Source: Angiostrongylus vasorum
Taxonomy: Eukaryota; Nematoda; Chromadorea; Rhabditida; Metastrongylidae
NCBI GenBank assembly: GCA_018806985.1
Contig: JADANN010000468.1
Span: 3,111,072 to 3,175,071, forward strand
Length of the DNA: 64,000 bases
Direction: 5' to 3'
Shown: positions 5,827 through 60,627 of the stretch, piece by piece
Numbering within the stretch: position 1 is the first letter of the stretch
Layout: the number at the start of each line of letters is the position of its first letter
Position numbers and translations under genes: made by a program
Notes under the pieces: generated by a model
Database searches by the model: none
What the model saw: the letters and a program-made list of their open reading frames with translations, nothing else
What the model was told of the DNA's origin: nothing

Positions 5827-6215
5827 CCTCCCAACGGTTCACCGTGTCATCGTGGCTGGGAGGTGTTCCTGGGTTTCGGACTGCGATGTACAGCAGGGAG
5901 ATTCGTCCCCCCGGCAGGGTCTCCCAAGCTGAGGAAGGAGTCCGACGTTTCCATCAGGAAGCCTAGCTAAGAGTAAACCAATACCAAGATCCACCACCGT
6001 CTTGGTATCAAAGTCGCATGGTGGTAAATCTGCCTGTGATCCACAAGGGCTGCCACTGCCTGTCGTGGTGACGACCTGGGCAGACTTTGGCCATGCTGTC
6101 CTCGGGATTCCAGGGAACCACAATGGCTTAACCAGCAAATCTTCGAAAAGTGGTGATTATGCTGGGGTCCGCACAACCAGTGATGACGGGCCGTTTAAGT
6201 ATCAAGTATCAAGTA
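5827..6215 (+). mobile_element. Ribozyme-headed retroposon family A, copy 2
   Basis: Plus-strand copy ending in AAGTATCAAGTATCAAGTA. It is flanked by an imperfect 11-bp duplication, TTTGCCATCAC just upstream and TTTGTCATCAC just downstream. P1 of the ribozyme-like fold is intact (5827-5833 with 5857-5863), and GCTAAG is at 5966-5971. P3 has a mismatch (GTG/GGC) and P2 has one (GGTTCAC/GTAAACC), so this ribozyme is probably inactive. A minus-strand copy follows at 6.6-6.9 kb. Confidence 0.83.
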
Positions 6216-6589
6216 TTTGTCATCACTCCAACCTAAGGGATCGCTACTTACTAGTAAGATGGTGCTATCACCTAAATTTTGCATAGACGTAGCATTTCCG
6301 GAACGTTGGATGGCTGATGTTTGTTTTTTGTGTATGGATTCATAATCGTTCTTCACTTCTTGCTCGTCCTTTCAGGTACTATTTGAGGGATTATCACTTA
6401 CAACCTTGTATGTCAACGATGCAAGTCACCCATGAAATACTCAGCTAACATAGGATGTATTGTTTGTGCTGGCCCCAGCATATTCTCCATTTTTCAGAGT
6501 TTTGTTGTTTTAGCCATTGTTTTTCCCTGGAGACCTCGGGACTCCAGGGAAACTTACTTACTTGCTTGGATAATTAGATGGCCTGTGTT

Positions 6590-6946
6590 GACTGATTGTA
6601 CGGGCTCCATCATAGTTTTCACTTTTCGGAGTTTTTCTGTTTTAGCCATTGTGGTTCTTCCTGGAGTCCCGAGCTCAGCCTAGCCAGTCCGCCTCCAGTC
6701 ATCACCACCACAGGCAGTCGCCGCCCTTGTCGATCAGAGGGAGATTTGCCACCATGGGACTAGTTTGATACCAGGACGGTGGTGGATCCTGGTATTGGTT
6801 TACTCTTCGCCGGGCTTCCTGATGGAAACGGCGGACTCCTTCTCAGCATGGGAGACCTTGCTGGTGAGATGAATCCCACTCTGTACGTCGCAGCCCGACA
6901 CCCAGGAACACCTCCCAGCCAGCCACAATGAGGCGACGAACTTTTG
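6590..6946 (-). mobile_element. Family A copy 3, inverted relative to copy 2
   Basis: Minus-strand copy. The joining segment reads GGCGAAG before GTAAACC, the variant found in genomic HDV-type joins, but P1 is eroded. A fragment of the same 3' region (Pu/Py-altered, GTTTTAGCCATTG...GGGACTCCAGGG) is repeated at 6466-6555, so the 3' end is partly duplicated. Copies 2 and 3 form an inverted pair with about 370 bp between them. Confidence 0.75.
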
Positions 6947-7797: not shown

Positions 7798-8312
7798 TTG
7801 CGAAATATAACTTTAATGATGCTGAGATATTTGCAAAACTCGGACCGCAAGTGTCTACGGTGGGGAACGAACGCGCTATTGTCCTTTCCGGGGAGTAGCG
7901 CGCTCACCACCACACCATGCGGGTCCTTCGTTTCGCCTGCTTCTGAGCTAGTTCTATTGAGCTTTTGCCATCAGCAATCACCCGTCAGCGGGATTGATCT
8001 GAGGGGCCCAAATCGCAATACATACCCTGCCGCTAAAAAGAGTAGGCAGTAAATAATAAGTCAAAATTGTGATTATAACTGCAGCCTCAGCTTAACTGGG
8101 TTCAATGCCGATTTGGGCTCCCCAGATCAATCCCGCTGACGGGTGATTGCTGATGGCAAGTGATCGATAGAACTAGCTGACAGACAGGCGAAACGAAGGA
8201 CCCGCATGGTGTGGTGGTGAGCGCGCTACTCCCCGGAAAGGACAATAGCGCGTTCGTTCCCCACCGTGGACACTTGCGGTCCGAAGTTTTGCAAATATCT
8301 CAACATCAGATG
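7798..8312. repeat. Fold-back element: ~200-bp inverted repeat
   Basis: Left arm 7799-8013 (AACTTTAATGATGCTGAGAT, GGGGAACGAACGCGCTATTG, CACACCATGCGGGTCCTTCG, ATCACCCGTCAGCGGGATTG) is repeated in reverse complement at 8113-8310, with about 100 bp between. The loop has GCCGCTAAAAAGAGTAGGCA. The arms differ at few positions, so the inversion is recent relative to other repeats here. Confidence 0.9.
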
Positions 8313-8764: not shown

Positions 8765-11700
8765 ATGACTTCTTACTGTTTCAGCAACACACTTCACTGT
8801 GCATTCCGGAAGTTGCATCCGTTCGTAATGGTCGTTGCAGGAATATATTTTCTCACCGTTGATCTCACCTTTTACTTCATTCATTTTTTCACTTCACGGG
8901 TCCATGTGACTAATCCAACAGAAGACTTGTTGTTTATCAGCGCCACACAAGCTGTCAAGAAAATCATTAGACGGGAGGTTGAGTTCTTTGATTTTCTCTT
9001 CGCCTTGGTTTTGATATTTCTCATTCCGACTTTTAGATATCGTCTTTTGACCTTGTACAAGCGTATATTCAACGAATGCAAGAGGTGAGGTCCTATACAC
9101 TTTTGTGTACCTCATTTATGACTGTTTATGTTTTATGGACAAATCTTCACTGGATTCCTGTTTTCATTTTAGTTCAACCACTTTTGAGGTCAACCCCATC
9201 ATTAATGCTGTGGTGGTAAAAAATTTCGACGAAGCTTGCGAGAAGGCACGAAAAGTGGATGCAGAAGTTAGCGCTACATCAGATAGTGAATTAGAAGAGG
9301 TCATTTCCACATTTTACCCATACTATTCAAAAAATGATTCGAATCCTTATATTCAAATCGATATACAAAATGAGCGTTAAATGTGTGCATTATCAAGTTC
9401 CCGATATGCACTAGATGAACGGTTCTTTATTCAAAGGAATCTACGAATGTTTCCTCTACTTTACAACATCAATAGTTCGTGTTGTTCAACGTGGTTCTGG
9501 TTTTTTAAACTTCTCCAGGACTCCAGGCCAGATTCCAATCCGCTATTACCGTTTCGGGGTGCTCATGTTTTGCCCATTGCACCACTGAGAAATAAGTTTC
9601 GGAAATCACATTCACTTGCACCTGTTTTATTTAGTAGGAAGCATGTTGGGACACATTTGTAACTTTCGGACTTTTTTTTCAAAGAAAAAAAAAGGAAAGG
9701 ATTTAATGATGCGTTTCAGCTTGTTCGTTCGAAACCTTTACTTGGTGTGCCATTCACAATGAAAGACGCTCTGTTAGTCGATGGCTTTATAATAACGTGC
9801 GGAATTTTTAATCGGAAGGATGATCGTTGCAGCCAGACTGCAGAAGTGATAGAGAGGTACTATTCATGTTCACTCCATTCATTTTCATAGATGGTTTTAG
9901 CAGCTCCTTTTTTTTGTTTTTCACTTCTGTGATCTGGTTTTGGCATTTGATGTTTTATGAATAGCATTAATAGCTATTTTTTGGTAAGAGCTCTGATTGA
10001 TGGTATCTGCACATGATTTAGAATGAAATCTCAGATGCGGGCTTTTGTAACATAAGTCCTCTATTTTTTTTCTTATCTGTGAAGAATGACTGAATGGTTG
10101 CAGTATCTTTTTTACAGCAACGATAAATTCTAGCTTAATGTACCTATTTCTGCAGCAATTTTTTTCGTTCATATTATATCCAGGCTTAGGTGAAATTCTG
10201 CAATCATGTAAAATTCTGGATTTTGCTGTTACAGTACTTCAAAAACCGACTTTCCTCTAACCTCGGTATCATTAATTAACATGTATTCTTTCACTGATAA
10301 GCTAACACGATGTTGGTAAAGGACTTTATTCCGCTAAAGTTTCGACGTCTTTGTCTTTCTCGGAGCCGGTGATCCGAGTCGATGGTCCACTGTTGTTCAC
10401 ACTCCCGATTTCGTGTCTATATCATCGTGTCGAGTCGGATCTTTCTTCTTTCCATTTTGCGTAATAGCACTTCTCCAGCGTATAGCTGAAGTCTCGCAGC
10501 TTAAGGATCCCAGTATAAAGCGAAGGGAAGCGCTATGGTATCATTGGAAGTGAAAAAAAATACATTTCTCGTGCTACACTTTTTTTTGAGCTAATGAAGT
10601 ATGTCCATGTATTGTAGAAGCTGATGAACAACCGTTCCCTACCATTTACGAATTTCCTTTATATAAGCCGATAATTATTTCGTTAAGGATGCTTGGTGCG
10701 GGTGGGATTCTCCTAGCAATTACGAACGTTCCGGAAGTTTGTATGTGGGTGGAGACTTGCAACACAATATATGGCCGAACTATGAATCCATATGATACGC
10801 GAAGAATGGCCGGTGGAAGCAGCGGAGGCGAAGGCGCATTGCTTGGCGCTGCTGGAAGTCTTGTGAGTTTCTTTATCCAGTTAGTGAATTGCTGTTTCTT
10901 TAAATTCAGTTTCCAAACATGCATTTTTTCTCCCTCCCAGAGTGAAATTGATAGGTGATAGAAAATAAGCTACATAAATCCGTCGTACTGTATCGACGTT
11001 ATCAACATATCGACATGACAGAATTGGTCTACAACTATCTTACATTCTAAAAACGAAATAAAATTAGTGCATTTACTACTTTTGAAACAGATGTTTGTTT
11101 CAGTTCTGTTTCGTCTCGGAATATTAGATCATATTCACATTTCGTGGTTTTCAGATTGGAATAGGAAGCGACATCGGTGGTTCGATTCGTATGCCGGCGT
11201 TTTTCAATGGAATCTTTGGCATGAAGACGACACCAGGTTGCTTAATCTAGAGTATCCATTGTGGTAGATTGCTTATACGGTGTAGGAATAAAGTAGGGGG
11301 CTAGTGAGTCCGTTATCTCTCCTTTAAGATTTATTTTGCTAAACAGTTGAACCAAACAATATTCCGTTTTCGATCGTTGCCAAATGCGTTAGTTTCTTTT
11401 ACATATATGTAGGGGCTATTGCAATTCAGGAATTATTCCCTTGGATGGGCACATACCAGCAGCTACGCATTATAAAGCTCAGATGCTGCGAATTGGACCA
11501 ATGTGTCGGTTTGCTGAGGATATTCCGTTATTAATCAAGGTCGTCACTATTTTCTAGTAGTCTTGCTAAGTCGTGAAGTAGAATTTATGCACTGAGTTTT
11601 TTTCTGCTTGAGTAGTAAAAGTGTTTGCCTGAGCAGATTTCGTATCAATTTGACCTTTCCAGCTTTTCAAATAAGACGAAAGAGCGGAAACGTAGTCTAG

Positions 11701-13270
11701 TATTGAATAAATCTTGTTATTAACAACCTCTTATCTGCTCAAGAAGAAACCATGACTCATTTCTATATTATTTTTTTATCTTTAGAGGATGAAAAGTAGA
11801 CCGGCATTGATCAATCTCTGAGCGATGCCCCATGTATTCGATCTCATCAAGCATGGTAGAAATGGTTGAGTGCAGATCAGGCCTATTCAATGGTTTACTA
11901 TTCTCTACCGATGTATCAAGTCAAACTGGCTGAGAGAAAAGCAAAACAAGGGTCTCAGTGATGCAATGGGTAACATGTGAACCCTAGAAAAGGGTAATCG
12001 TGGGTTCGAATCTGGCCTATGGTTCAAGTTTCGTAAATATCGCAGTATCATAGTGGTTTTATCTTATCTAGTCAGTGTTTCTATCCTCCCAAACAAGTCT
12101 GGTACCAATATGCCGTTGCCATAGGGATGGGAACCACTTTTGGCCTGGGGCACGAGATCAAACCGACAATCACAAGTGCATTTCAGTGCACCTCGAACCA
12201 CTGCGCTACATGCGCCATTTTTTCTACGTATGTTTCTTAATTCTTCCTTTGTCAGTATCAGAAGCAAAACGAGGAAGTATTCGTTACGAACCCTACCACT
12301 GTAGGTTAATCTTTAGTGTTATTGTAATGTCAAGTTGTTCAGGTAATGGGCGGCGATCGGGTGCCGTCGTTAAAACTCGACGAACCGGTGCCTATGCGCA
12401 AACTGCGGATTTTCTACATGGAGGGCATCCATGATGTACCACTGATGCAGCCCCTAAGCAGTGATATGAAGGCTACACTTCGAAAAGTATTGGTTGTTTG
12501 ATTTTTCTTAGTGTGGTTTCTTTCTAGAAGCAAACCTTGACTAGAAATTTTATATATATATATATGAGGTACGGTGGCAATGAAAAAGGAAATAAGTGGG
12601 ACATCTGAAATAACCTTTGTTGTATAAATGCTGAACACGTGGTGCGATACTTACTCATATTGGACTTTAGGCAGTCGGATATTTTGAGCGTAAGTACGAT
12701 CTAATCGCCCATCGTCTTGATTTGCCACTGGTTCGCTACGCAGTGGAAATGTTCATGGTCAGCATGTACGTCAAAGGGGGCCCTAAACTTTCTGAGTACA
12801 TGCTTTGTGCTGAGGCTTCGAAAGGACACGTGAACACCTTCGTAGAGTTGGTAAAGTTTTTCCTGGGAAGATCGAATCACACATTACCTGGCATAATTGG
12901 TGCGATCATTGATAACACAGATGCGCTGAGTGATATGAAGAAAGGAGAAATAGTTTACAAGCGCGATCTACTGATACGTGAGCTGAAGGAGCTGTTGGGT
13001 TCTGATGGAATATTTCTTTTTCCTAGTTGGCCATCTACCGCCCTATTCCATAATCAACCTCTCCTTGCCCCTGTAAACTTTGCTTATACGGCGTTATTCA
13101 ACGCAATCGCTTTCCCAGCTGTTCAGTGTCCGATGGGTTTGGATAAGAGTGGTCTTCCATTGGGAGTACAAATCGTTGCTGCACCTAATTCCGACCGACT
13201 ACTTATCGCTGCTGCAAAAGATCTCGAGGAAGGTTTCGGTGGCTGGGTACCGGCTGACCCTTCGATTTAA
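8765..13270 (+). CDS. faah: Fatty acid amide hydrolase (FAAH2/nematode faah type), nine exons
   Basis: An amidase-signature serine hydrolase that cleaves fatty acid amides such as N-acylethanolamines, probably membrane anchored. Exons read from splice sites: 8765-8977, 9037-9084, 9189-9299, 9720-9856, 10688-10862, 11155-11236, 11430-11539, 12343-12486, 12671-13270. All junctions are GT-AG and keep frame, giving about 539 aa, close to human FAAH2. Residues ~20-42 form a hydrophobic N-terminal anchor. The Lys-cisSer-Ser triad is visible: K139 in GVPFTMKDA, S214 in AGGSSGGEG and S238 in GSDIGGSIR. Spacings of 75 and 24 residues equal those of mammalian FAAH (142/217/241). The C-terminus has LPLGVQIVA and FGGWV, typical of the FAAH2 branch. 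The start is the least certain point: a TTTCAG acceptor at 8775-8784 allows trans-splicing and initiation at M 8828 instead. Introns hold repeats: a hammerhead-like repeat in intron 4 and a SINE with a nested element in intron 7. No frame damage was seen. Which faah paralogue this is was not resolved. Confidence 0.93.
10283..10400 (-). repeat. Repeat E copy in FAAH intron 4
   Basis: TATTCTTTCACTGATAAGCT, GTTGGTAAAGGACTTTATTC on the plus strand. Minus strand reads CCGAGAAAGACAAAGACGTCGAAAC, a hammerhead-like core with a partly paired stem II and GAAAC. Confidence 0.65.
11788..12216 (-). mobile_element. tRNA-headed SINE, split by a nested repeat
   Basis: Minus-strand SINE with the common tail GTTGATCAAT/GCATTCGA block at its left and tRNA-like head (GCGTGTAGCGCAGTGGTTCG-type) at its right end near 12190-12216. 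A foreign segment at about 11925-12062 carrying GGGTTCGAATC and TCGCAGTATCATAGTGG interrupts it between the GTATC and CAGTG parts of the SINE. It is in FAAH intron 7. Confidence 0.75.
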
Positions 13271-16960: not shown

Positions 16961-17151
16961 TCTACCGCTTATATTACACTACCTTAGCTTCTTCCGAATT
17001 GTTCGTTTTTGAACCAAGCAAGACGGTTTTTGTCTGCTCAGGTTTCATGAGTATGATATGATTAAAGAATGCCTATTCCTTATTCGGTGCGATCATAGTT
17101 GTGAGAGAAAGCTGATGTGATCGCGCAATAGTGATATACAGGGAGCAGATA

Positions 17152-17533
17152 CTTGACACCTGAACGGCCCGTCCTCATTGGTTGTGCGGGCCCCCAGCAT
17201 AGTCACCATTAATCGGAGATTTGCTGGTTAAGCCATTGTGGTTCCCTGGAATCCCGAGGTCAGCCTGGCCAAAGTCTGCCCAAGGTCTTCACCACCACGG
17301 GCAATCGCAGCCCTTGTGGATCAGAGGGAAATTTGTCACCATGCGACTTTGATACTAGGACGGTGGTGGATCCTGGTATTGGTTTACTCTTAGCTAGGCT
17401 TCCTGATGGAAACGCCGGGCTCCTTCTCAGCTTGGGAGACCCTGCCAGGGGGACGAATCCCACCGCTGTACATCGCAGTCCGACACCCAGAAACACCTCC
17501 CAGCGACGATGAGGCGATAAACCGTTTGGAAGG
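17152..17533 (-). mobile_element. Family A copy 4
   Basis: Minus-strand copy. An 8-bp direct repeat AGCAGATA flanks it at 17144-17151 and 17537-17544, consistent with a target-site duplication. The join GCTAAG and GTAAACC are retained; P1 and P3 carry mismatches. It abuts repeat E and a SINE to the right. Confidence 0.82.
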
Positions 17534-17595: not shown

Positions 17596-18075
17596 ATATG
17601 TATTCTTTCATTGATAAGCTAACACGACGTTGATAAAAAAAGGATAAAGCTCTCAGCGTTGATCAATCCCTAAGGGATGCGCCATGCATTCGACTTCATT
17701 AAGTATCGTTGGAGGTGATTGAGTGCATATCAGGCCTTTACAATGACTCGCCGTGGCCTACTGATGTATCGAGCCAGTGCTGCTATCCTCCCAGACAAGT
17801 CTAGTACCAATTTGCCGACCCCGGAGGGATGGAAGGGTTGGTGGGGCATGGGCGCTGGGATCGATTCCACATGTGCGTTGCATTGGTACCTCCAACCACT
17901 GCGCCACACGACGTTGATAATAATGTTTATTCGGCTAGCGTTTCTATGACTTCTCTTCCTTAGAGAATCACGGATATCAGCTGCAAGAAAGACGAAGACG
18001 ACGGAACGGTAGCCAAATAAACATTTGTATCAACCCCGTGTTAACTTGTCAGTGAAAGAATACAATGTTGTACAG
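17596..18075. repeat. Repeat E pair surrounding a SINE
   Basis: Left piece 17596-17636 (TATTCTTTCATTGATAAGCT) is split from its continuation at 17921 (TAATGTTTATTCGGCTAGCG) by the SINE. An oppositely oriented piece follows at 17970-18070 (AAAGACGAAGACGACGGAAC, then GTGTTAACTTGTCAGTGAAA), so two E copies stand head to head. Confidence 0.65.
17637..17905 (-). mobile_element. tRNA-headed SINE with a 15-bp target-site duplication
   Basis: Minus strand. The head from 17905 has an A-box-like TGGCGCAGTGG and a B-box-like GGAATCGATCCC, the internal RNA polymerase III promoter of tRNA-derived SINEs. ACACGACGTTGATAA occurs at 17622-17636 and 17906-17920, exactly flanking the element. The target is a copy of repeat E, which resumes on the far side. 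Confidence 0.9.
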
Positions 18076-21531: not shown

Positions 21532-21813
21532 CGGATAAAAGTTCTCGGCGTTGATCAGTCCCTTAGGGATGCGCCATGCATTCGACTTCATTAAGCATCG
21601 TTTGGAGGTGATTGGATACACATTTGCCCTTTACGATGACTCGCGGTGGCCTACCGATGTGTCTGATGTGTCAAGCCAGTGCTGCTATTCTCCCAGACAA
21701 TTCTGGTACCAATTTGTCGACACCGAAAGGATAGAAGGCTTGGTGAGCCACGGGCGCATGAATGGATCCCATGTGCATTGCAGTGCGCCTGTGACCACTG
21801 CGCCACACGCGCC
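21532..21813 (-). mobile_element. tRNA-headed SINE copy
   Basis: Well-preserved minus-strand copy with ATGCGCCATGCATTCGAC, GTGTCAAGCCAGTGCTGCTA and ACCACTGCGCCACACGCGCC. The plus-strand frame spanning it (21551-22006) begins inside the SINE and is not treated as a gene. Confidence 0.85.
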
Positions 21814-22683
21814 TTTTTTCTCGGGTATTCAAGAGAAATCATTCTCGAGCTGCAGGTTAATGAGACCAGAGCAAGAATATGAGCCTCAGCTTGTAGCTGA
21901 ACTCATGTATAATGGTTGCAAGACAATGAAACAAATGGAAGAAATGCTAGAAGCCACAAGACATATGGAGACGATGAGTCCTCTAAATACACAAGTATCG
22001 GAGTAAGTCACGAATTCAAGGTCTCCTATGTTATCTGACAACTATATGTTAAGGTATAACTAAGAAGAAAATTATAATTTATCTTAAAATACTTATGTTA
22101 TCCGTTACTACTCATTTCCAATCTTTGGTAGCTTGAAAGAATAAACGCACCGCTGTGATGAAAAGTAAGCAAAGGATTAAGGATGAAAGGAAGGGAAAGG
22201 GCAAAGGAGAGGATTTACTTGTTATCGTTATTGCTAACAACAACAACAGAGGGATTCCAGTGATAGTATATAAACTGCAAAAAGGTTTCAGTAGGAGGGA
22301 AAGGAGTGTGCTACCCTAGTTAATGGCGGATCGACGCTATATAAGGAAAGACCTCTCGATCTCAATGGCAACTTGACAGGATGATTGAGATCCTTAGCAC
22401 TATAGTGCTCATGAGAAATACATGATGAGTACCAATTTGGAAACGCCTGAAAAAAGGGTTGTTATTAATCAAACAGAGATGATCAACTGTCGGAATGAGC
22501 TTCCTGAAAGAAAAGAGTTCGGCAAAGATCACATCATTCATGGTCTCGGCATGACGAACAATAGCGATTTTGCGTTCGATTTTCGTCGTTAATGTTGTCG
22601 ATCCCGCTTAAAAAAGAAACGATAGACTTCGGCGCACAGGTGGTGGATTGATTTTAAGGCACTGTTCTTGAGAATTTTAGCAG

Positions 22684-23110
22684 AAATATAACTTTAATGA
22701 TGCTGAGATATTTGCAAAACTCTGGACCGCAGGTGCCTATGGTGGAGAACGAAGGCGCTATTGTCCTTTCCGGGGAGTAGCGCGCTCACCACCACACCAT
22801 GCGGGTCCTTCGTTTCGCCTGTCTCTCAGCTAGTCCTATCGATCTTTTACCATCAGCAATCACCCGTCAGCGGGATTGATCTGGGGGGCCCAAATCGGCA
22901 ACGAACCCGGGCAACGAGAGACAGGCGAAACGAAGGACCCGCATGGTGTGGTGGTGAGCGCGCTACTTCCCGGAAAGGACAATAGCGCGTTCGTTCCCCA
23001 CCATAGGCACCTGCGGTCCAGAGTTTTGCAAATATCTCAGCAACATTAAAGTTATATTTCGCAACGCATACCCTGCCGCTAAAAAGAGTAGGCAGTAGAT
23101 AAGAAGTCAA
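22684..23110. repeat. Second fold-back element of the same family
   Basis: Left arm 22686-22834 and right arm 22915-23066 are near-identical reverse complements; the spacer of about 80 bp holds ATCACCCGTCAGCGGGATTG. The same GCCGCTAAAAAGAGTAGGCA end follows. TTTTAGCAGAA flanks both sides (near 22674 and 23114), a candidate target-site duplication. Confidence 0.88.
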
Positions 23111-24227: not shown

Positions 24228-24642
24228 TGGTGATAAAAGCGACAGAGCGATTGGCGTTGATCATTCCCCTCAGGAATGCACCATGCATTCCGATCCATTC
24301 AGCATCGATAAAAAGATAAATCTCTCGGCGTTGATCAATCCCTGAGCAATGCGCCGTGCATTCGAGTTTCACTAAGCATTGCTTCAGATGACTGAACGCA
24401 TATATAACCTTCATTTATTCAATCATTTCGTCATTCATTTATTCATTTATTCTATTCTATGTATTCTGATGTTCACAATGATTCGCAGTGCCGTACTGAT
24501 GTATCGAGCCAGTGCTGCTATCCTCTTAGACAAGTCTGCTACCAATTTGCCGACGCCTCACTGATGGAAGGCTTGGTGAGACTAGGCACGGGACAGATCC
24601 CATGTATATTGTAGGGCGCTTCGAAGCACTGCGCTACACGCT
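24228..24642 (-). mobile_element. tRNA-headed SINE with a truncated second tail
   Basis: A full copy at about 24307-24642 (CCAGTGCTGCTATCC and ACTGCGCTACACG present) preceded by a tail-only fragment at 24228-24305, giving a partial tandem of the GTTGATCA...GCATTC block. A TTCATTTATT-type simple repeat lies at 24410-24450. Confidence 0.75.
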
Positions 24643-24832: not shown

Positions 24833-25610
24833 TGTGGGTTATCAGATAAGTTCTTTTTAAGGTTTACAGTCAGCTGTTCTATTTCAAATATTTCTACCTG
24901 TAGCAAAATTGGTAAAATGTACAGTTTCTAATGGTGAGTGGTTTCACTACTGCACCAATATTCAACGATTCAGGCTTTGTAACTGTATTAAAACAAAATG
25001 GTTGAAAAAAAAGACAACGAATGTGCCTATGTAAGACGTAACAACAGCATTCAAGAGATCAGCGCTCTAGAAGAGGTATCCCAAGATTAGAAGGAGAATC
25101 AACCAGACCAACATTCAACGACGTTCATAGAGACTACAGAATTCTGAAGTGGCAGACGAATCCATACATAAATGCAAATATCCTTGGCAAACCTGTGAAG
25201 GCCAGTCATTTGAATAAATAAAACAGTAATAATTGCCGTATAAAATAGTTCTCTATTAAGGCTTCATGGTGGAAAAATTTACATGTATTACTCATGAGCA
25301 TATGGCATTCGACTACGTTTGAGTGTTGCCATGCATGTGTTGGCTTCACTAGAGCGAATGACGAGTTTTTCAAACGAATCGAGGGTGCGGAGTGTCTGAG
25401 CGTTCCTGGGACTGAAACTCGTTCCATGTCGTTCACGTTCTACCAGTCAGCGACTGCCGATTTGCATTTACACTCAACAGCCTTAGCAAATCAATCTTAC
25501 GATTGCCACGATGTCAATTCGTCCAGAATATTCTTTTTTAATAGTTCATCATCTATCAACGATGTATGACAATTTAATCCTCACACTTCCACACTCCTAA
25601 TTCGCTCGTT

Positions 25611-25760
25611 CCTCCCAATGGTTTACCGTCTCATCGTGGCTAGGAGGTGTTCCTGGGTGTCGTACTGCGATGTACAGCGGGGGATTCGTCCCCCGGCAGG
25701 GTCTCCCATGCTGAGAAGGAGTCCGGCGTTTCCATCAGGAAGCCTAGCTAAGAGTAAACC
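25611..25760 (+). ncRNA. HDV-like ribozyme candidate at 5' end of family A copy 5
   Basis: P1 CCTCCCA (25611-25617) with TAGGAGG (25641-25647), one C-A mismatch; P2 GGTTTAC (25620-25626) with GTAAACC (25754-25760), perfect; P3 GTC/GGC (25628-25630, 25638-25640) with one wobble; L3 TCATCGT; P1.1 CA/TG (TG at 25648-25649); P4 TTCCTG (25650-25655) with CAGGAA (25736-25741); J4/2 GCTAAG at 25747-25752, catalytic-type C at 25748. Relative to copy 1, P2 is restored to full pairing while P1 is weakened, so the family consensus is better than either copy. Confidence 0.7.
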
Positions 25761-25991
25761 AATACCAAGATCCACCACCGTCTTGGTATCAAAGTCGCAT
25801 GGTGGTAAATCTGCCTCTGATCCACAAGGGCTGCCACTGCCTGTCGTGGTGACGACCTGGGCAGACTTTGGCCATGCTGTCCTCGGGATTCCAGGGAACC
25901 ACAATGGCTTAACCAGCAAATCTCCAAAAAATGGTGAATATGCTGGGGCCTGCACAACTAGTGATGACGGGCTGTCCAAGTACCAAGTAAG
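25611..25991 (+). mobile_element. Family A copy 5 with a 13-bp target-site duplication
   Basis: Full-length plus-strand copy of 381 bp. TAATTCGCTCGTT occurs at 25598-25610 and again at 25992-26004. The left duplication ends exactly where CCTCCCA begins, so the element starts at the predicted ribozyme cleavage site. The 3' end has AAGTACCAAGTAAG units and no long poly(A). This supports target-primed reverse transcription of a ribozyme-processed RNA. Confidence 0.88.
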
Positions 25992-26004
25992 TAATTCGCT
26001 CGTT

Positions 26005-28995: not shown

Positions 28996-29204
28996 TCACT
29001 CACCTGGATTTCACCATTATTCCCCACTATGCTGAAAACCCTCCTCGTGTGCACGGTGTATATGGTGTCTCCCTGTTAGGTAGGCTCTTGTTAGCTTACC
29101 AAAACGATGAAAGTACACAGTCTCATTAGCATGAAGTCAAAAAAGACATCAAACTAGAAAAAAGAAGCTCAAAGTAGCCGAAACGACATGTTGCATAGCA
29201 GCTA

Positions 29205-29465
29205 AGCGGTGATCAACGACTTAGGGATGCGCTATGCATTCGACTCCATTGAGAAACGCAGAGGTTGAATATGTACTTAACCTATACAATGAATTGTGCG
29301 GGATTATTGAGGAATTAAGTCAGTGTTTTCGGCCTCCTAAAAAAATCTGGTACTAATATGCCAATCCCAGAGGAATGAAGCAACTGGATAGCGCGAGGCG
29401 CGTGAGCGGACCAACGGTCAAATGTGTATTGCAAGGCACCTCTAGACTGTGCGCTACAAGCGCCT
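29205..29465 (-). mobile_element. tRNA-headed SINE copy, diverged
   Basis: GTGATCAACGACTTAGGGAT and GCTATGCATTCGACTCCATT at left, AATCTGGTACTAATATGCC in the middle, GTGCGCTACAAGCGCC at right. Confidence 0.7.
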
Positions 29466-29767: not shown

Positions 29768-30163
29768 TTATCGCCTAAAACTTGGATACTTGGATCGGCC
29801 ATCATCACTGGTTGTGCGGGCTCCAGGATAATTTCCCATTCCGGATATTTGTTGGTTTAGTTATTAGGATTCTTTGGAGTCTCGAGATTAGCCTAGGTGA
29901 AGTCTTCCTCAGGTCATCACCACCCCAGGCAGTTGCCGCTCTTATGAATTAGAGGGAGATTTGTTACCATGCAACTGGTTTGATACCAAGGAGGTGGTGA
30001 TTCATGATATTCGTTTACTCTCAACTGGGCTTCCGGAAAAAAACCTCGGACTTCTTTCCAGCTTGAGAGGCCCTGCTGCGAAGATGAATCTCCCTAGATA
30101 AATGTGCATCACAGCCAGACATACAGGAACACCTCTCAGTCACGATGAGGCGGTAAACTGTTG
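29768..30163 (-). mobile_element. Family A copy 6
   Basis: Minus-strand copy, diverged. The P2/P3/L3 block is recognisable (AGTTTACC, GCC, TCATCGT), but the joining segment reads GTTGAG, losing the catalytic-type C, and P1 is mismatched. The ribozyme is predicted to be dead. It forms an inverted pair with the fragment at 29.6 kb. Confidence 0.72.
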
Positions 30164-30165
30164 GA

Positions 30166-31716
30166 AGGAACGCCCGAAAGAGGGGAAATAAAGAACACCA
30201 TACCAAAATGATGCTCGTCAGCAGTGCTTTGAGCGAGTGGCACCCACCTAGCAGTTCTGATGCCTGACGGAAATGAATGGGCAAACCATAGTGATCATTA
30301 CTGCTGAAGTAAGTTGACAATTAACGGGATTACAAATGATTTAAATGCTTAACCACTGAGTCCACAAACGGCGATAAACTACACCGGTCAACCGAAGTCA
30401 AGCCAAAGCATCAAACTGTTCCGCCATCCTTGGTTCCCATGGATGCCGACTCCACAAGCAACTAATGTCGGATTTTGTACTTAGATCGTTCGCTCATTCT
30501 TACAGAATGCTGTAAAAAACCAATTTTTTAACTTTTTTTTCTAGTGATGCTAGAAGTCAGCGTAGAGAAAACCCATTATAAATTCCTTATTCTGAATGTG
30601 AATCTACTAGGAAGTCTGTTTGAGATTTCTCAGGGCTCCATTCCTTATTTTTTATATGGTTTGCTAAAATAGATACATTCTCTGCAGTTAAATAAGTAAA
30701 CGAGAACCATACATATTCAATTAGAAAAGTGTTCTTTTCCAAATAGATACTTTCCCGGAAATTAAGTACAGCACGAGTCCGCTTCGCTTACAAGCAGTAC
30801 TCTCAAACTAGATTGAAAACTAGGTGATACGCCTTTAAACGAACTTACAATTAGATCTTCGAGTCGAAAAGACATAAAACCTAATGAGCATAAGAAAAAG
30901 TTAGACGACAAACTGATATACCACTACATGATTTGCCGACACTTATCACAAGCTGGTCCTCTTCGAACACTTCCTTAAGGCAATCTATGTTCCATTTTCA
31001 GAACTTTATCGTAGCAGAATCATGTCCCCGACAAAGAATTGGCAGCTGGCACCTTCCCCTCAATCATACCAGAGGTGTACTTGCATTTCCTTTGGAATAC
31101 GTAATGATCAGTCATTTTAAAGGTATCTCACTCTCGTCCCAGTAATATCTCTACTTCTACCTCTATAAGGTTCTCACTTCCTTAATTCCTTCTCGAATTA
31201 TTCAGACAGTTACCGGCGTGCTTTTTTTCCATATCGAAAGCATTTACTAGTGGTTTGACGCCACGACTCCTCGATGACTCCAAGCACAAACTAGAGAGAA
31301 CACCAAATCTTTTTGGGTCGTTGAGGTTACATGAGGTTGTTATGAAATTTTTATCCAGCTAATGTTTTGGCATCTCCTCCTTTTTCAGAGCTGTAGTGCT
31401 TCAAGCCGGTTGTACACAGCCGTTCATTGTTGCGGTTTTAGTGATTTAAAAAAAATTCATAAGAAACTCGTACAAGTCGAACAATCTAGAAGGACGGCGG
31501 TTCCATGTCGAGGTTAAGAGGAAGCTGGTTCAAAAAAGTGCAAACAGTTCCATGAATGCTGCGTACCAAAGTGATGTGAAAGCTCGAATGGAACTCACAT
31601 ACTTGTGACTAACTAGTACCTGCTGCTACTTTGCACTAGTTCCTGTACGTTTCAGTAGAGTGGAAAATTAGGTAATCCTGCACCATATGAACAATCCATG
31701 GGTGATGGCTGTTTAC
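30166..31716. other. No gene recognised
   Basis: Few and short frames and no clear repeat. If the minus-strand exon at 31.7-31.9 kb is real, its downstream exons should be here; none was identified. Confidence 0.45.
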
Positions 31717-38714: not shown

Positions 38715-41700
38715 CGTCGTCGTCGTCGTTGTGACTGCTGACGGACGGACGGACGAGTCTCACCAATCAACATCAAATGTTTGTTTGCATTCGTCTTTAT
38801 GATGACGCGTGCCTATGCGGAGTTATTTGTTGTGTTCTCCTACTTCAGTTGTTTTTTGTGACATACAGCTGTTTACTTACTAATCATATACTACTCATAT
38901 CATTCAGACATCAAGTGACACGTACATGTTTCTGCACACGTTACCCACTACGAATTGTCCGTGCGATTTTCCAAATTTTTTTCCCGTCGCCTGCAGCAGT
39001 GATTCGTTCACATGGAATGTTTTTTGATCAGTCTTTAGTGGATGTTTACACATTGTTTGTGAACGATGTCTAAATGTCCATTCAGCATACAGAATGTTAA
39101 GGCTCGATTTTGAACTTTAAAAAACAATGAGTGGATTGTGAGCACCACGTGTTCTTAGTACGTATGCTCCCACTACTACTACTATTACTACTACTACTAC
39201 TACTGCTACTGCTACTGCTACTACTACTACTACTACTTCCACTAATATTACTACCACTGCTGCTACTATTATTACTACTGCTACCGCTACTACTCCAGCA
39301 AGTACTACTACCACTATTACGACTACTCAGTTGACATAACGTTAAGGAAGTACACTGTTTTACGACTAGAATGTTTGTAAGATGATAAGCAACATAATGT
39401 AAGGAAGGTTATAATGGAGAAGCCTCCCAACAGTTTACCGCCTTTTTGTGGCTGGTAGGTTTTTCTGGGTGTTAGGCTGCAATGTACAGCGGAGGATTCA
39501 TTCATCCAGTAGGGCCTGCCAAGCTGAGAAGGAACCCGGCGTTTTCATCCGGGAGCCCAGCTAAGAGTAAACCAATACCAGGAATCACCACCGTTCTGAA
39601 ATCAAATTAGTCGCATGGTGGCAGATCTCCCTCTTCTGCAGAGGCGACTGCTTGGGCTGGTGACGACCACAGGGAGGGCTTAGGTTGGGCTGACCTCGAG
39701 ACTCCAGGGAACCACTATGGCTAAGCCAGCAAATCTCCAGGGAACGGAAATTATGTTGGGGTCTGCACAACCATTGAAGATGGGCTATTCAAGTATCCAA
39801 GTTAGTATTATGGAGAAACAGTACAAGTTTATAATAAGCAGTATTTCGTGCATGGAATCCAGTCACTATTTGCGTGCGACTATTTCGACATCACTTCAGA
39901 AGATATAAGGAATATTTAATAACTAACATAGTGATGGTTCAGTAATGGGGGAGTTTAACAATGTAGTAGAACTGACCATGTTATACACACAAAGCAGGCC
40001 CTGTAATACATGGAATTCTGACAGCTCACGAGTAGTAAGTTTAGCAAAGTTTGGATTATATTCAACGGGTAGTTGGTTGACACCTTTGTTTTGCTGTGCA
40101 TTCGAAAATGTTTTGCTTCTATTCTTCGTGTGTTCCGTGTTCTACGTATGTTCGCACGTTTGTACAAAGCTGGGAGATTTGCCAAATGCTGGAATGATGA
40201 CCGTCCAGGCTTTTCATGGCCGAAGGTTCTGGGTTTTCTATGACTATTTGTTCATACGTACTGAGGTAACGTCAGTGATTATTTGATTTGCTCCTAGGTG
40301 GTGGTAGTGGTGACGTCGTCGTCTCCCTTGCTATATTAAGCGCAGTTTTAACGTCACATATGTCAGTTGCTGTCATCTATGTCAGGATATGAATAGAGTG
40401 TAAGACAAGTAATGACATAAGACAAATTCCCTACTAGTGAACTCAAGTCGTGCACTTGGACCGAAGATCAGGAATACTACTGACTTCATTGCTTCCATAG
40501 TTACTTCTCATCACTACTAATTGCTGTGTCGGAACGAAATGTGAATTGGATAGTTCGCAACACTAAAATTAGCAAAGAAAAAAATTACTCGCAATGGAGA
40601 CGAAGAGACAAGGTGGTTGCGAATGACGTCATCAAGTCGCCGACAACTCATCGTTGATTGCCATTTCGAAGGCAGTCAGTCAGTCACTCAGGCGTTGGCT
40701 GACCGATTGTTGGTGTATACGATAGCGAAATGCTGCTGAGTGGATCGCACAAGACATGCCGATTGTGTATGTGCGTGTGTATATATGTGTATATGTGTGT
40801 GTGTCTGGTGTGGTCCTCATTTCGTCGTCCATCAGTCCGTCATGTCTCATTGTCTCTCGTGTGTCTCTTACTTTGTCGCCTAGTGAAATGACGTGATTAA
40901 ATTGCGCACCGGGGAATCCCATCCGGTCGTTTAGAAGGCTCCAGCGATATCTCACATACCACACTCTAGTGCCTTCCTTGTTGTTTTCAAGCACAAACTC
41001 TCAACCATTGCTAGTTCGCTTTTGAAAGTCACATGTATTTCATAGCTCTGTTCATCACCTACGTAGTAGTTTGTCATGAATCAACACATTTCGCAAAAAT
41101 ACAATTGAATTCACTTCACAGTACTTCGTTTTCACCAACGTTACAGTGAATTGCCGTAAATTGTTCTGGTTGATGCTATCGTTACTGCAACCATGAAAGT
41201 GCGTTATCATTTACGTTAATCAGCTATATAGAGTGGCTCTCAGTGGTTATTTTTGCTCGTTCACATATCAGCCACTTGTCATCTTGACAGACCTCTAGTC
41301 TAGTAGGATCTCATTCGTTTTCTTTTTCTTTCACATCAGTTTTCTCTCTCATACATATGTGGACGTTGAAACTGTCAGCGAGCTAGCGAGCGTTTCGAGG
41401 CGGTCGGCCGGCCACCGCGATAGTTCCAGTGGAGCGGACGGCCATAGATTTAACACAGAAGCCCGTACGTCGTCGGAGGCGTGCGCACACAAAAGTGCAA
41501 GTTTTTTTTTCTCCATCCGTCATCCATGTGTACACGAACGAAATCACTCGAAATCGTTACGGAATAGTCGATCACGCATGTGCGTGTCGGAACTCATCCG
41601 AGGAGATGTTTTTGTGAGAGCGCTGCTTTTAGTTGTGCTACGCACTAAATCAGTAAGTTGAATGAAATACGTCCTGGAAACGGCGGTGGTGATGATGATG

Positions 41701-42696: not shown

Positions 42697-45600
42697 ATGT
42701 GTGTGTGTGTGAACGTATGTGTGTGCGTGTGTGAACGAACAGACTCTTAGAAGACCAACGAATGAAGTTTCACGCGCTTCGTAACTGTGTACTCTTTCAC
42801 ACTAGCTGTTCGTTTTCTGTGATGCTGTTATTGTTTGTGTCATGAATCTAGTCGAAGCATAAGTAGAGACAAGCAGATTAGATTTCATGCAGTGTACAGA
42901 AATGGTGTATTTTCTGGATTTGCTATAGTAGTTTCCAGAAGACGAAGCGGACCTGCTTCACGCGACTCGGACTGGGTCTAGTAGTGAGTGAGTAATGAGC
43001 TATGTTGTGCACATTGTTTATTATGACGTGACGTGAACCGCACCCATTTTCGAGCGACCAATCACCAGCCGAAGAGATGATTGTGTTAGTGTGTGAACGG
43101 ACGGATAGCGTGGGAAACAGCGGGCGGCAAGGTGAGAAGACAATTCCCTGAGATGACGTCACTCGTCTGCGATGGTCGCCGCTCGTTGGTGGCGGTCGTT
43201 GGCGAGCGAGTGTCGTCGCAACGACGTTGTTTATGAGTTGTGATGACGGCCGTGCGACTCGCTAGTCCGTCGCACACGCCGCGCCGCTGGTCGTCGGTGA
43301 CGTTTTCTTCTTCGGCGAATCGCCTACTGTGCCGGTTTGCTGTTCGTTTGCTAGCTCCTGTTCGGGCTGGCTGTCCGGTTATGGTCACTTGTACATTCAA
43401 TGATTCGCGGCAATACGAAAAAAAAAGGAACCAACCACAGTGCCAAACTGGTCACATGCAGATCGCATATGGTTGGTTCTCACGGGCTGCCGAGCTAAGA
43501 TCAACCCACGTTCACGTCGCCGCACACGCTTTTACATCATAAGAGAGGCGGGACCGTGAGGGGGTTTCCCAAACCAACGAACATCTAGTGCAAATACCGA
43601 AGACGACGAAATCATCGCGTGAACAAGAGGTACGGGAAGATAGAGAGGGAGAGAGAGGCAGGAAGAAGAGGAAGAAGAGGAAGAGAAGCACTCGTTCATA
43701 TCCAGTTCCATGTTAATGCCAGCTTCTATTGTCATAGTCCTAAATAGTGCTAAGAACTTATGCAGTGTAAATATATTTGAACGTTTAGCTTCTTCTCTAC
43801 TGCCAATTGTTATTGTTTATTATTGTTTTTCAAAGCAGGATATTATGTGAAATACAACCACAGTGATGCTGAGATATTTGCAAAATTTGGATCCCAGACC
43901 AGATCGAACCACTATTACCCTTTACGAATGCTCGCGTGTTGCACGCTGTACCATTGAGGCACTTGAGTCGGCATTGAACCCAATCAGGCTGAGGCTGTAA
44001 TCGAAACCACAATGTTTAACCTTTTATCTACTGCCTATTATTATTGCTTTTCACGGTAGGATATGATGTGAAATGCATGTATATTTGATGTATTGTATGG
44101 GATGTATATTTGAACGATTTTCTGCTTTTTTCGGATAACCAGATATTTCTCTTCTGGACTTGTGAAAGATTATATAATCCGTTTTGGGCAAAGGTTTCTC
44201 TAGAAATTGCATAGTTCTTCCTTTCAAGCTTTTTTTTGCCTATGAACCTTGGCTTAACTTAATAATCCGAGAAGGTGTTGCGTAGTTCTGTTCCAAGAGA
44301 AAGTCGTTCTAATCTTTTCATAGCATTTTCTCAAGAACTCACGTAAACATAGGAAAGATATGGAAGTCGTATCGACAATGTGAAATTGGTCATTTCTAAG
44401 GGTTTTTAAACTTAGAGTGATGTGTTCTGACAAGTATGTGTCCAACACTACGTCCGTTTTCATTTCGCAGGATCAAAATTTATTAAACGGTGGGACCGCT
44501 TACGGTGCCGATCGGTACGCGGCCACTGCGGCTGCTGTAGCTGCCGGAGCAGGGTCAATGCTCCATGGCATTCCACCGAAACATGCTCAACTCACCGGCG
44601 TCCAGCAACAAGAATGGCAACAACCACGCTCGCCAATTCAGCCGGCAGCACATGCATCAGGTCAGTCCTTGTCCATATGTTCAGTCTGAATTCTGTAGAT
44701 GAGAGTGAACATAGCTCTGAACAGCAATTCATTTGCAGATGCACAGCAAATCCCTCATCAAGCTCAACATCACTTTCCAAGTGGTTTACCTCCACAGTTC
44801 ATTCAAGGCCGACCACCTGGATTTCCATGTTATCCACATAACTATCCTGGCGTACCTGCTGGGCAACCCGGTTATCCTGGCAGTACTGCGCCATCGGTTG
44901 GGTACGGTGTACATATGATGAGACCCCAACAACAAGAACTTGTACGAATGCCCCAAGGACCAACACCTGCGGAATGGGCTGCTCAACAGCAGCGCGTTCT
45001 TAAGGAGGGCAATCCTCCCACTCCAGCTAGTATTCCGGCACCCAGTCCTGCTGCTTCTTCTATAGCGGACGAGTCGGTAGACGATAAGTCACGCTTAGAG
45101 TCACCTTCATGGGCTAATCAGGGCCAACGTACTCCGCATCCGGGTGGTCCTCCTCCATCTGGAATGATTATGCATCCTGGTATGATGCCTCCACAAGGAA
45201 TGATGCCACCTGTCATGCAATCAGGTGGGCCTCCTGGTCCTCGAAAAGAGAGCATTGTTGACAAACTCGTCGGACCACCCACAGCAGCAAATCCGCCGCG
45301 CGTAATGCCGGAACGGCGCATGTTTTTCGAACGTCTTGTGCAGTTCTGTGAACAGCATGGAGAACCAATTACTATGATACCGCAGGTTTCGAAACAAAAT
45401 GTTGACTTGCATCGTTTATATATTGGTGTTCGAAATCGAGGAGGATTTGAGCAGGTTACTAAGGACAAAGCATGGAAAGCGATTTGCAGTGAAGCCAATC
45501 CTGAGATCTCACAATCTTCTGCTGCGGGATACCAACTTCGAAAGCATTACGAGAAGCATTTGTTGTTGCTCGAATGTGTGGAGACAGGTCGTCGACCAGA

Positions 45601-46073
45601 AGATGCAGTAGCCTTTGCGGATGGACTTAAGAGACAACGAAGGAAGGAACCTGCCACAAGTGCTGTTGGAACTCCAAGCAGCGCATTGACCCCGTTTCCA
45701 GGGCCGGCACATGCTCAACCCCAGCCTAATCAGGACCCGTCATTGTATTATCAACAGCAGCAGCAACAGCAAGCAGCGCATGGCTTCCCACCTGGTGCTG
45801 GTCCACCAGTACCTCCTGGCGCACCTGTTGGCTATCCGCCTGGAGCGTATCCTCCTCGACCACCTCCTGGAGTTACTCCTATGCGTGCACCACATCCGCA
45901 ACCGCACATGGGGAATGCACCGCAGCCGGATCTTTCGCAGATGGATGAGCAACAACGACACCATTACTTCATGCAACAGCAATATCACCATCAACAAATG
46001 GTGCATCAGCAACAACAACAACAACAACAACAACAACATCATCAACACCAACATCAGCAACAACAACAACAGC

Positions 46074-46107
<34 letters not shown>

Positions 46108-49100
46108 CCATCAACAGCAGCAACAACAGCACCACCAACTACAGCAACAACAACAGCATCACCATCAACAGCAACTACTTTTGCAGCAGTCACAGCAACA
46201 ACAACAACAGCAACCGCAGCAGCAGTCACAACAGCAGTCACAGCAGCACTCACAACAGCAGTCACAGCAACAACCTCAGCAGAATCTGCACATGCCTGGA
46301 CAAGTTGTTCAGCCAACAACTCCAGTACGACCGGGTTCTGACCAGTCAGCTACCCCTGTAACTGTACAGATGGATACACCGAGTCAGTCCGGTAGTCGTG
46401 CTCCCAGCACCGGCCCTATTCCTAGTGTTACATCACCAGATAGCAGCTCTCGTATGAGTGCAGGAGCTGAAACTGGCAGCGACATGCAGCGACCTGGATC
46501 GGCTGCAGTTGGGACCACTGCTCCCACTCCGACTACAGCACCTCACCCAATTCCTCAACCTTCCACGAGCATGGCTGTTGTTGGGCCTCCAGGGCAGCCA
46601 TCTGGTTCCTCTCAACCGCCAGGGACGCCATTCTATGGCCAGCCTGCACCGATGTATCCAAATGGTCCAGGTCGGGTGCCAGCTGGTTACCCTGGAAGCT
46701 ATCCTTACCACCCTCCTCACGCCAGTATGCCGCCCGGTCATCCAGTTACACCATCTCAGCAACCACCACCTCAGTTTGCACCCGGGGCACATCCGGCTGC
46801 TCATCCTGCACATCCTCAACATCAGCAATACATACAGCAGCAACAGATGTGGAGAAGTGCCTATGCTGCACCAGGACCTGGACAGCTGGCTCCACAAGCG
46901 CCCAGGTATGCATACACTTCACGATTACCCGCACCGCAAGGTGCTTCGAGCCAACAAAGTGCACCATCACCTGGAGCCAACAAAATGAGGTATCCTCCGC
47001 AACCACCACCATCACAGCCAGTTGCACCTTTACAACAGCAGCAGCAACAATACCCTCCGAGACCTCAAATAGGAGGCCCTTATCCATCTATTACCCACAG
47101 TGCTCCTACGGCGGCTTCAATAGTTATTCCACCTATTTCGTACTCTCATCAACACCATTTTCCAAACGGCAGTGTTGAAGCAACAGTAATTAGCCAGAAG
47201 CGACGACGCAAGATCATGGCTAGGGAATTGATTAATGCTACTCCACGGCGCTTGATTATGGCACTTCGTAGTGGTCTGGAAACCGAAGCAATCTGGGCAA
47301 TCAACGCTTTGAATGTGCTTTTGTACGATGATACCAATCCACATCCTTGCCTTACTCAAATGCCTGGTCTTTTAAATGTGATTATCGAGCACTTCTGGGC
47401 GACTTTATCCGTCCTTTATCCTGAAACATTCCCGCTAGGTGAGCCATCTGTGCTGCACATTCCGGAATGCAAGTATGATGTGATTCGTTTGCCTTTTTTG
47501 ACGAACGGCAACGCTCACGAAGAGGTGAAACAACCTGTAGCAACAAGAAATCCTGAGAAGAAGAAGAACTATAACAAGTGCTCGCGAACGGGACGAAAAA
47601 TAAAAGTGCTGGATATGGAGATGCCGGAGCAGTTGAAAAGAAAATTGATGTTGGAAGAAGGCCCAAGTACACCACCTGTTGATGGTACGCTTACTTCTGC
47701 CTACGTTGAAGAAAAAGTGAAACTGGGTCTTGGTGGTGGATTAGCAGAACGTGTTGCATTTCGACTTCAAGCGGAATGGCGGGCATCCCGAGCAGAGAAC
47801 CGAGCCGGATGTTGTAAATGTGCTGGAGACCGTGAAGCTTGTAACAGTGTGTTGGAGGAAAACAGTCCGCCAAAGATTAAGCAAGAGACGAATGATGACG
47901 GTGAAGAGGTCTGCTATCTCACCTATTTAATAGAAACGTAGATGAACCATTATTTTTACTACATATTTTGCTAAGGTACCCGAGATCCTCTTACTACGTC
48001 GAGATCGTCCGAACGATACATCTGGTGAAACAAACGTGTTCGAAATACGCTGGCCGCGTTCAACAGCGCTGGCTTGCCACGATGAGACACTGCAACGATT
48101 TGTGGGTTTTCTGTTTAAAATCAATATAGCTGTCTTTTATACTTTATTGATTCTTTCTCACTTATAGTTATTGGTAGTGCGAAACATAAACAGTCTTTTG
48201 AATCGCAGAAAATTTCGTTGCTGCTTTTTATGCAAAACATTGTACTCCTTAAATACTTATGCGGTAACAAAGTATATCATTTTAGCTTCGATTGTAACAC
48301 ACACAACTATAGAAGTTTTTAGTGTTTGAAAATTGCTTGTTCCAAAAAATCTCACTCAAAAAATGTGTGAAAAATGATGTAGTTTTTGAGAATATTCAGA
48401 GTTTCTTGGTTTTTTGTCCGGTCTTAATTTCTGAACTTTATTTGTACATTTCTTGCAATTTATGTCTTCTTCACAAAATTCGGAACGTTTTGTTCAACCA
48501 CCTTTAATAGATTATATGATGTACTAATTTTTTGCTTAGATTTGTAGAAGTTCAACCCCTCTGAACTGCCGTCTGGATATTCTGTGTATGTTTAATTTCT
48601 GAAGATTGGATGCCTGATTCTAGGCTCAACGTGCACTGGCCTTGTCGAACATCCTGCGTGGTTTCTCGTTTTTACCTGGCTGTGAGCAGTTATTATGTAG
48701 TCACAATGGTTTGCTGTTCCTTCTAGGACGATTTCTTCAACTTATGGTCACAGAAGTTCCTGTGCAACGAGCAAAACCTGCCCTGAAAATAGAAGAGGTA
48801 TATATGTGTGCATACATATACGTAATTATATACTTGTTTGTATATGTGTATACGTATAAATGTATATGTATTTATATGTACTATTCACATAGTTTCTTTT
48901 CTAAATGTGATTGTATGGTTCATCTGGTTTGAGAAGTTTTATCATTTTTGCATACTCATGTTTGATTTTACACCTTTCTTTTCTAGGATGCACCTTTACC
49001 GGAGCCAGAATCGTACGATGTATTGAGGAAGCGTGCGATGTCTTTGCTTGATTCTGACGATACTAGAGAGGTTTTACTGGTCGAAACAGCCAATCATCTG

Positions 49101-56104: not shown

Positions 56105-56610
56105 TTGAAAGGTATTGTGCGAAACATAACAAGGATGTTGAGGTATAAGCAAAATCCGGAACAACAGGTGGCCTTCGAGCCCACGATTTCCTTTCCCGTG
56201 GACTCACATGCTTTCGACCACACCAGCCGAGGCCCTTGCTTTGTCTTTCTCTCACCTATTTATTTTACTCTTGTGGTGCCATTAACAATCACCCGTCGAT
56301 AGGAATCATCTGGTAACCAGAAATTAGCATTGAACCCAGTTAAGCTAAAGTTGCAATCGAAATCACAACGTTTAACTTTTATTTACTGCCTATTCTTTTT
56401 TTTTAGATCTCAGATCAATGCCGTTGATGGATGATTGCTGATGGCAGTGATCGATAGAACTAGCTGAGAGACAGGCGAAACGAAGGACCCGCATGGTGTG
56501 GTGGTGAACGCGTTACTCCCCAGAAAGGATAATAGCGCGTTCGTTCCCCACCGCAGACACCTGCGGTCCGGAGTTTTGCAAATATCTCAGCATTATAGAA
56601 GTTTAACTTT
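56105..56610. repeat. Composite fold-back family insertion
   Basis: 56450-56600 matches the right arm of the fold-back family. 56115-56260 matches a relative (GATGTTGAGGTATAAGCAAA, GGCCCTTGCTTTGTCTTTCT), also seen at 7128-7432, 15672-15755 and 16580-16960. The two variants are joined through AACTTTTATTTACTGCCTATT. Confidence 0.7.
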
Positions 56611-60339: not shown

Positions 60340-60627
60340 AGGGTGCGTGTGGCGCAGCAGTTGGAGGCGCCACTGCGACACACACGTGGAATCGATCCCG
60401 AGCGCCCATGGCTCACCAAGCCTTCCATCCCTTCGTGGTGGGGGAATTGGTACCAGGATTATCTGGGAGGATAGCAGCACTGGCTCGATACATCGGTAGG
60501 CCATCGCGAGTCATTGTAAAACCCAGATATGCATTCAATCACCTCCAACGATACTTAATGAAGTCGAATGCATGGCGCATCCCTCATGGATTGATCAAAA
60601 CCGAGAGCTTTATCCTTTATCCTTTTT
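60340..60627 (+). mobile_element. tRNA-headed SINE with a 14-bp target-site duplication
   Basis: Best plus-strand copy: GTGGCGCAGCAGTTGGAGGC (A box), GGAATCGATCCC (B box), GGCTCACCAAGCC, GGCTCGATACATCGGTAGGC and ATTGATCAAAACCGAGAGC, ending in a T-rich tail. TTACGTCACATTGT flanks it at 60326-60339 and 60628-60641. It lies in an intron of the ppt-1 remnant. Confidence 0.92.

Follow-up and report, generated by a model that had tools for sequence, protein, structure and literature searches.

In the genome of the nematode Angiostrongylus vasorum we identify a family of short non-autonomous non-LTR retroposons whose first 151 nt probably constitute an HDV-like self-cleaving ribozyme. Judging from sequence, we put at about 0.85 the probability that such an element is released from read-through transcripts by this ribozyme and copied by a LINE. 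Our window, a 64,000-nt stretch of contig JADANN010000468.1, holds seven copies of the family. The copy at 25611–25991 (plus strand, as are all of its parts given below) is about 95% identical to the 385-nt family consensus and lies between the two members of a 13-bp target-site duplication (TSD), TAATTCGCTCGTT, at 25598–25610 on the left and 25992–26004 on the right, which agree at 13/13 positions. Both this duplication and the element start CCTCCCA at 25611, reported in a first-pass annotation of the same DNA, are directly visible. The copy ends in a tail of CAAGTAYC-type short repeats with AAGTAAG at its end (25976–25991); across the family, the element closes with a short repeat tail built of CAAGTATC-type units and terminating in CAAGTAAG. 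The other copies in the window lie at 1770–2153 and 5827–6208 on the plus strand, at 17150–17532 on the minus strand, at 6559–6921 on the minus strand (matching from consensus nt 27 onward only), and, more diverged, at 29780–30168 on the minus strand (75.5% identity) and 39423–39807 on the plus strand (78.7% identity). Compared with proteins, the translated element gave only three matches, all to predicted Angiostrongylus proteins, which we take for gene models that include copies of the element.

The start of the element is sharply defined across the genome. Searching the 279.9-Mb assembly (468 contigs) with the retroposon copy returned 10,085 first-look candidates, from which 40 copies with a 91–100% match were scored; their ranking followed similarity to the window copy, which favours full-length copies. 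CCTCCCA stands letter-perfect at the expected nt 1 in 27 of the 40 and with one or two changes, at the same position, in the other 13, bearing out the earlier proposal that full-length copies begin just before this motif. A TSD of 8–15 bp, most commonly 12–13 bp, abuts nt 1 in 31/40 copies, and none of 40 swapped-flank controls reached the same TSD score; the same test found no clear TSD at nt 1 in nine of the 40. TSDs, a 3′ repeat tail and dispersed copies together are what a non-LTR retroposon displays.

The consensus of the 40 copies folds into a complete HDV-type double pseudoknot. It begins CCUCCCA AC GGUUUAC C GCC UCAUCGU GGC UGGGAGG UG, which reads in order as P1, J1/2, P2, one base, P3, L3, P3′, P1′ and a P1.1 strand, with GCUAAGA GUAAACC (J4/2 and P2′) about 100 nt further on. 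P1 pairs 7/7, P2 7/7, P3 3/3 and P1.1 2/2 (CA/UG), and the best layout for the branched P4 combines CUGGGU/GCCUAG and GUCGGACU/AGUCCGGC and carries UUCC-AUCA-GGAA as a side hairpin. When the first 151 nt are folded for minimum energy by a method incapable of pseudoknots, P2 is kept and P1 and P3 are absent.

The window copy carries the same parts with few blemishes. The predicted cleavage site falls between 25610 and 25611, immediately before the P1 5′ strand CCTCCCA (25611–25617), whose partner is TAGGAGG (25641–25647; TGGGAGG in the consensus). Here P1 makes 6/7 pairs, since nt 6 (C) stands opposite nt 32, an A in this copy and a G in the consensus. The P2 strands GGTTTAC (25620–25626) and GTAAACC (25754–25760) pair 7/7, and the P3 strands GTC (25628–25630; consensus GCC) and GGC (25638–25640) pair 3/3, one pair being U–G. 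Between the latter two lies the L3 loop UCAUCGU (25631–25637), which contains the CA strand of P1.1 (25632–25633), paired with UG at 25648–25649. As drawn from the consensus fold and pair counts, the P4 5′ strand comprises two stacked segments, CTGGGT and GTCGTACT (25653–25666), facing AGTCCGGC (25720–25727) for the second segment and GCCTAG (25742–25747) for the first, with the side hairpin TTCC-ATCA-GGAA (25730–25741) inside the domain; one P4 pair is broken by a mismatch, because this copy has GTCGTACT in place of the consensus GTCGGACT. J4/2 follows as CTAAGA (25748–25753, within GCTAAGA at 25747–25753), and opens with the presumed catalytic cytosine. The cytosine at this position is catalytic in HDV-like ribozymes, a role also described in PMC3774820. 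The first-pass annotation, which had listed five HDV helices in order, was thus right about P2, P3, P1.1, P4 and the GCTAAGA joint, and overlooked the C–A mismatch in P1.

Descriptor searches place the fold exactly at the element start. A strict, all-Watson–Crick HDV descriptor matches the consensus at nt 1 only, and finds nothing in 17.09 Mb of shuffled sequence. A loose descriptor is far less discriminating, with 322 matches in 17.86 Mb of shuffled window (about 18 per Mb), so a loose fold alone means little; when the consensus was shuffled 13,429 times, 60 of the shuffles contained a match at any position and none at nt 1. In the real window it matches only at three other positions, where no copy starts. 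The exact 37-nt P1–P2–P3–P1′ core occurs 460 times in the genome, 230 times on each strand, and a looser core pattern 1,648 times, with no hits for the reversed-pattern control of the first or the control of the second. Rfam, whose HDV model the first-pass annotation had proposed for scoring a consensus, supplied no confirmation: no HDV model matched in the window at gathering scores, nor in the window element or seven other copies at permissive thresholds. Curated covariance models often miss ribozymes that are pseudoknotted and diverse.

Pairing is maintained among the copies; a break of P1, P2 or P3 among them would have spoken against the fold in the view of the first-pass annotation. We compared 80 distinct copies, obtained by merging identical ones among 83 places that passed a length filter, and each individual pair of P1, P2, P3, P1.1 and P4 is standard in 66–78 of 78–80 copies (of 79–80 for P1, P2 and P3), with no systematic break in P1, P2 or P3. 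The presumed catalytic J4/2 cytosine is present in 77/80, and within L3, U21 is kept in 76/80, T24 in 80/80 and G26 in 78/80. Mean conservation is 0.96 for P2, 0.95 for J4/2, 0.945 for P3–L3, 0.93 for P1 and 0.90 inside P4, and these differences are small. The signal from compensatory changes is limited because the copies are too similar. At P1 pair 6–32, with the rest of the core fixed, the genome-wide counts are C–G 460, U–G 53, C–A 44 and U–A 10; the compensated U–A is thus seen 10 times against 5.1 expected under independence (Poisson P = 0.034), for a pair that was chosen after it appeared in a listing and in a family where mixed copy ages also raise double changes. We regard this excess as possible, weak covariation support for the fold. 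Among the first matches listed of 1,177, P3 inspected by eye has one compensated change and no clear excess.

Several known systems share this architecture. R2 and the R2/R1 SIDEs of Drosophila and other arthropods are likewise non-LTR elements with an HDV fold located at their 5′ end or close to it, and, according to passages of PMC3414825 and PMC3774820, the ribozymes of short non-autonomous forms cleave in vitro. R2 is specific to rDNA, whereas the nematode retroposon is dispersed and flanked by TSDs. Its P3–L3–P3′, GCC-UCAUCGU-GGC, resembles the ACC-UCCUCGU-GGU of an R2 ribozyme primer given in PMC3414825, with the outer P3 pair changed on both sides; the division of the primer into P3 and L3 is our own. 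An L3 G and the U said to be its partner in the R2 ribozymes covered in PMC3774820 are both present in the nematode element, and that paper also places the cleavage by R4-, L1- and RTE-clade ribozymes at the 5′ junction. The trypanosomatid L1Tc/NARTc/SIDER elements are also widespread short retroposons with a 5′ HDV-like ribozyme, Pr77, in another host group and with another sequence (cited passages of PMC4035085). Among nematodes, a review states that HDV-like ribozymes occur in two other species (PMC8256844), a likeness in ribozyme class. The cited passages on the Haemonchus genome count two SINE families without giving their names (PMC4053716). Among the titles and abstracts listed from the open-licence literature, none described this family or a ribozyme in Angiostrongylus, Haemonchus or nematode retrotransposons; it may be published elsewhere.

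A non-autonomous element needs a reverse transcriptase, and one RTE LINE is the prominent candidate. A search for reverse transcriptase (RT) yielded 8,885 candidate matches, of which 150 were scored and 30 loci fetched; 22 of the 30 loci fall into one protein cluster, and all 30 have the same RTE 3′ end. RTE-RTE LINEs are reported to make up 39.2% of the genome of Angiostrongylus cantonensis (PMC6871775), and the short retroposon is like them in its defined 5′ end and short-repeat tail. It differs from the RTE here, which encodes reverse transcriptase and has another 5′ sequence, at which only a degenerate HDV-like pairing can be drawn. The stretch of the short element that best matches the RTE 3′ end is its own 3′ end, a score equalled by 28 of 2,000 shuffles. 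RTE tails consist of CAGGTGATA or AAGTGAC units; a shared AAGTATC tail was considered and dropped, as one pattern scan found no RTE end with that tail. Overall, the RTE LINE is our best guess for the helper of the short retroposon, an assignment that we favour by a little. As to the earlier proposal of retroposition in trans, retroposition itself is upheld by the TSDs, the repeat tail and the dispersed copies, and the trans component, by way of the RTE LINE, is plausible and weakly supported.

The two families also meet physically: locus L060 has a short-retroposon copy interrupted by an antisense RTE insertion, and at L072 (5–249) an RTE frame is immediately preceded, on its upstream side, by a short-retroposon copy of like orientation that is truncated by the end of the locus.

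A question of origin, compatible with the ribozyme reading, is whether the short retroposon is a SIDE, that is, an internally deleted derivative of an autonomous LINE with the same ribozyme. Such an architecture is known from trypanosomatid NARTc and L1Tc and from Drosophila R2 SIDEs (passages of PMC4035085 and PMC3414825): Pr77 is shared between the LINE and its short elements, and SIDEs share ends with R2 or R1. For the nematode retroposon, in contrast, we found no parent LINE with a shared 5′ end. The start of the dominant RTE, CCACGGATCTCCC, bears no relation to CCTCCCAACGG, and none of 31 distinct RT places (36 loci, five of them overlapping) was seen to begin with the 5′ part of the retroposon; only four of these places reach the LINE 5′ end, and the RTs fetched are of one RTE type, which leaves room for a rarer parent LINE. 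Two candidates were set aside: L060, where the RTE 3′ end that interrupts a copy is antisense, and a 24-nt match at L065/L066 (E = 0.11), which looks like a fragment and not a shared 5′ end. We consider descent from such a LINE unlikely, while granting it more weight than a decayed ribozyme, a conventional SINE or a chance resemblance, each discussed further below.

The RTE 5′ end is itself sharp, with an exact CCACGGA start in 31 of 36 copies examined; these comprise 32 of 40 places listed (L114–L145) and four near-full-length RT loci (L078 and L081–L083), of which L081 and L083 have clear TSDs and L078 and L082 have none that is clear. The start of the dominant RTE LINE, CCACGGATC, allows a divergent HDV-like fold to be drawn at nt 1, pairing CCACGGA with UACGUGG (with a G–A mismatch) as P1, GGAUC with GAUCC as P2, GCC with GGC as P3 and GCGUC with GACGC as P4. 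P1 then has five base pairs plus one mismatch, J1/2 contains a hairpin and L3 is 12 nt long. A relaxed descriptor, widened after the pairing had been seen, matches RTE nt 1; of 4,000 shuffles, 6 match equally well. P1 pair 6 is G–A in 34/36 copies and another non-pair in the other two, and one copy of the 36 has a compensated P4 change. Given the post hoc descriptor, the unpaired P1 pair 6 and the 12-nt L3, we do not claim the RTE 5′ end as an HDV-like ribozyme. That both the RTE and the short element have ribozyme-made 5′ ends of independent origin, with a divergent fold in the RTE and a canonical one acquired separately by its partner, is a speculative scenario that we doubt; under it, much of this genome would have been built by ribozyme-processed read-through transcripts.

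Returning to the ribozyme of the short retroposon, the fold might be an ancestral relic, with present copies spreading by other means. By the strict descriptor no match occurs in the 64-kb window, family copies included, and every P1, P2 and P3 pair is standard in only 24 of the 80 copies compared, as decay would produce. Yet the consensus, an approximation of the active source, matches perfectly, and the 460 exact cores are spread genome-wide, which makes a decayed ribozyme a distinctly improbable reading.

We give slightly less credence still to a conventional SINE, a pol III-transcribed derivative of a small RNA with a promoter-set 5′ end and a 5′ stem-loop that is structural only. In size, copy number, TSDs and repeat tail the family resembles a SINE, and partial matches to an A-box (7/9 letters, nt 178) and a B-box (7/10, nt 221) occur in the correct order. 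This pair, the best one in that order within the consensus, scores 14/19 letters, however, and 152 of 300 shuffles do at least as well, placing it at chance level. ARAGORN, run on 8 of the 40 loci, reported no tRNA, Rfam found no small-RNA head in the window, the element or seven other copies, and the 5′ fold fits the strict ribozyme descriptor. The family is SINE-like in size and behaviour, and on these sequence-based tests it fails the strict SINE definition of a small-RNA head and a pol III promoter. Least credible of all is that a GC-rich stem merely resembles the HDV fold by chance: a loose descriptor does match shuffled sequence at about 18 sites per Mb, but the strict form matches 0 times per 17.09 Mb and sits exactly at nt 1.

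The remainder of the window contains genes and other repeats. A large frame at 44699–47941 encodes an ARID-domain (osa/BAF250-like) protein that, along 62% of the query region, is 99% identical to a protein of Angiostrongylus cantonensis; the top-ranked of the 30 matches in the ARID-domain search is from Necator, at 88% across the full region. An amidase gene has exons at 10590–10958 and 12671–13270, the latter best matched by Teladorsagia (79%), with no named Angiostrongylus protein among its 22 matches. Fold-back-type repeats with long inverted arms occur in several copies (7835–8308, 22683–23060 and 56277–56603) and appear unrelated to the retroposon. Another dispersed repeat family is found at 11794–11858, 17639–17859, 21538–21745, 24318–24580, 29196–29389 and 60398–60618.

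We propose that copies of the ribozyme-headed retroposon are transcribed passively inside longer host transcripts. The ribozyme would then fold and cut just before nt 1, the C of CCUCCCA, giving an RNA with a defined 5′ end; the predicted cleavage position at the 5′ end of P1 coincides with the TSD boundary in 31/40 copies. The reverse transcriptase of a LINE, the abundant RTE being the likeliest, may recognize the 3′ end and repeat tail of this RNA, and target-primed reverse transcription into a new site would leave a TSD of 8–15 bp.

The ribozyme-headed retroposon is a further family of an already known mobile-element strategy. It adds one more abundant family to the animal short retroposons in which a self-cleaving RNA apparently sets the 5′ end. 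Its hundreds of exact cores and over 1,000 recognizable ones offer a natural library for the mutational analysis of a ribozyme, and the family may serve as a test of whether read-through transcription and self-cleavage can replace the pol III promoter in a SINE-like element.
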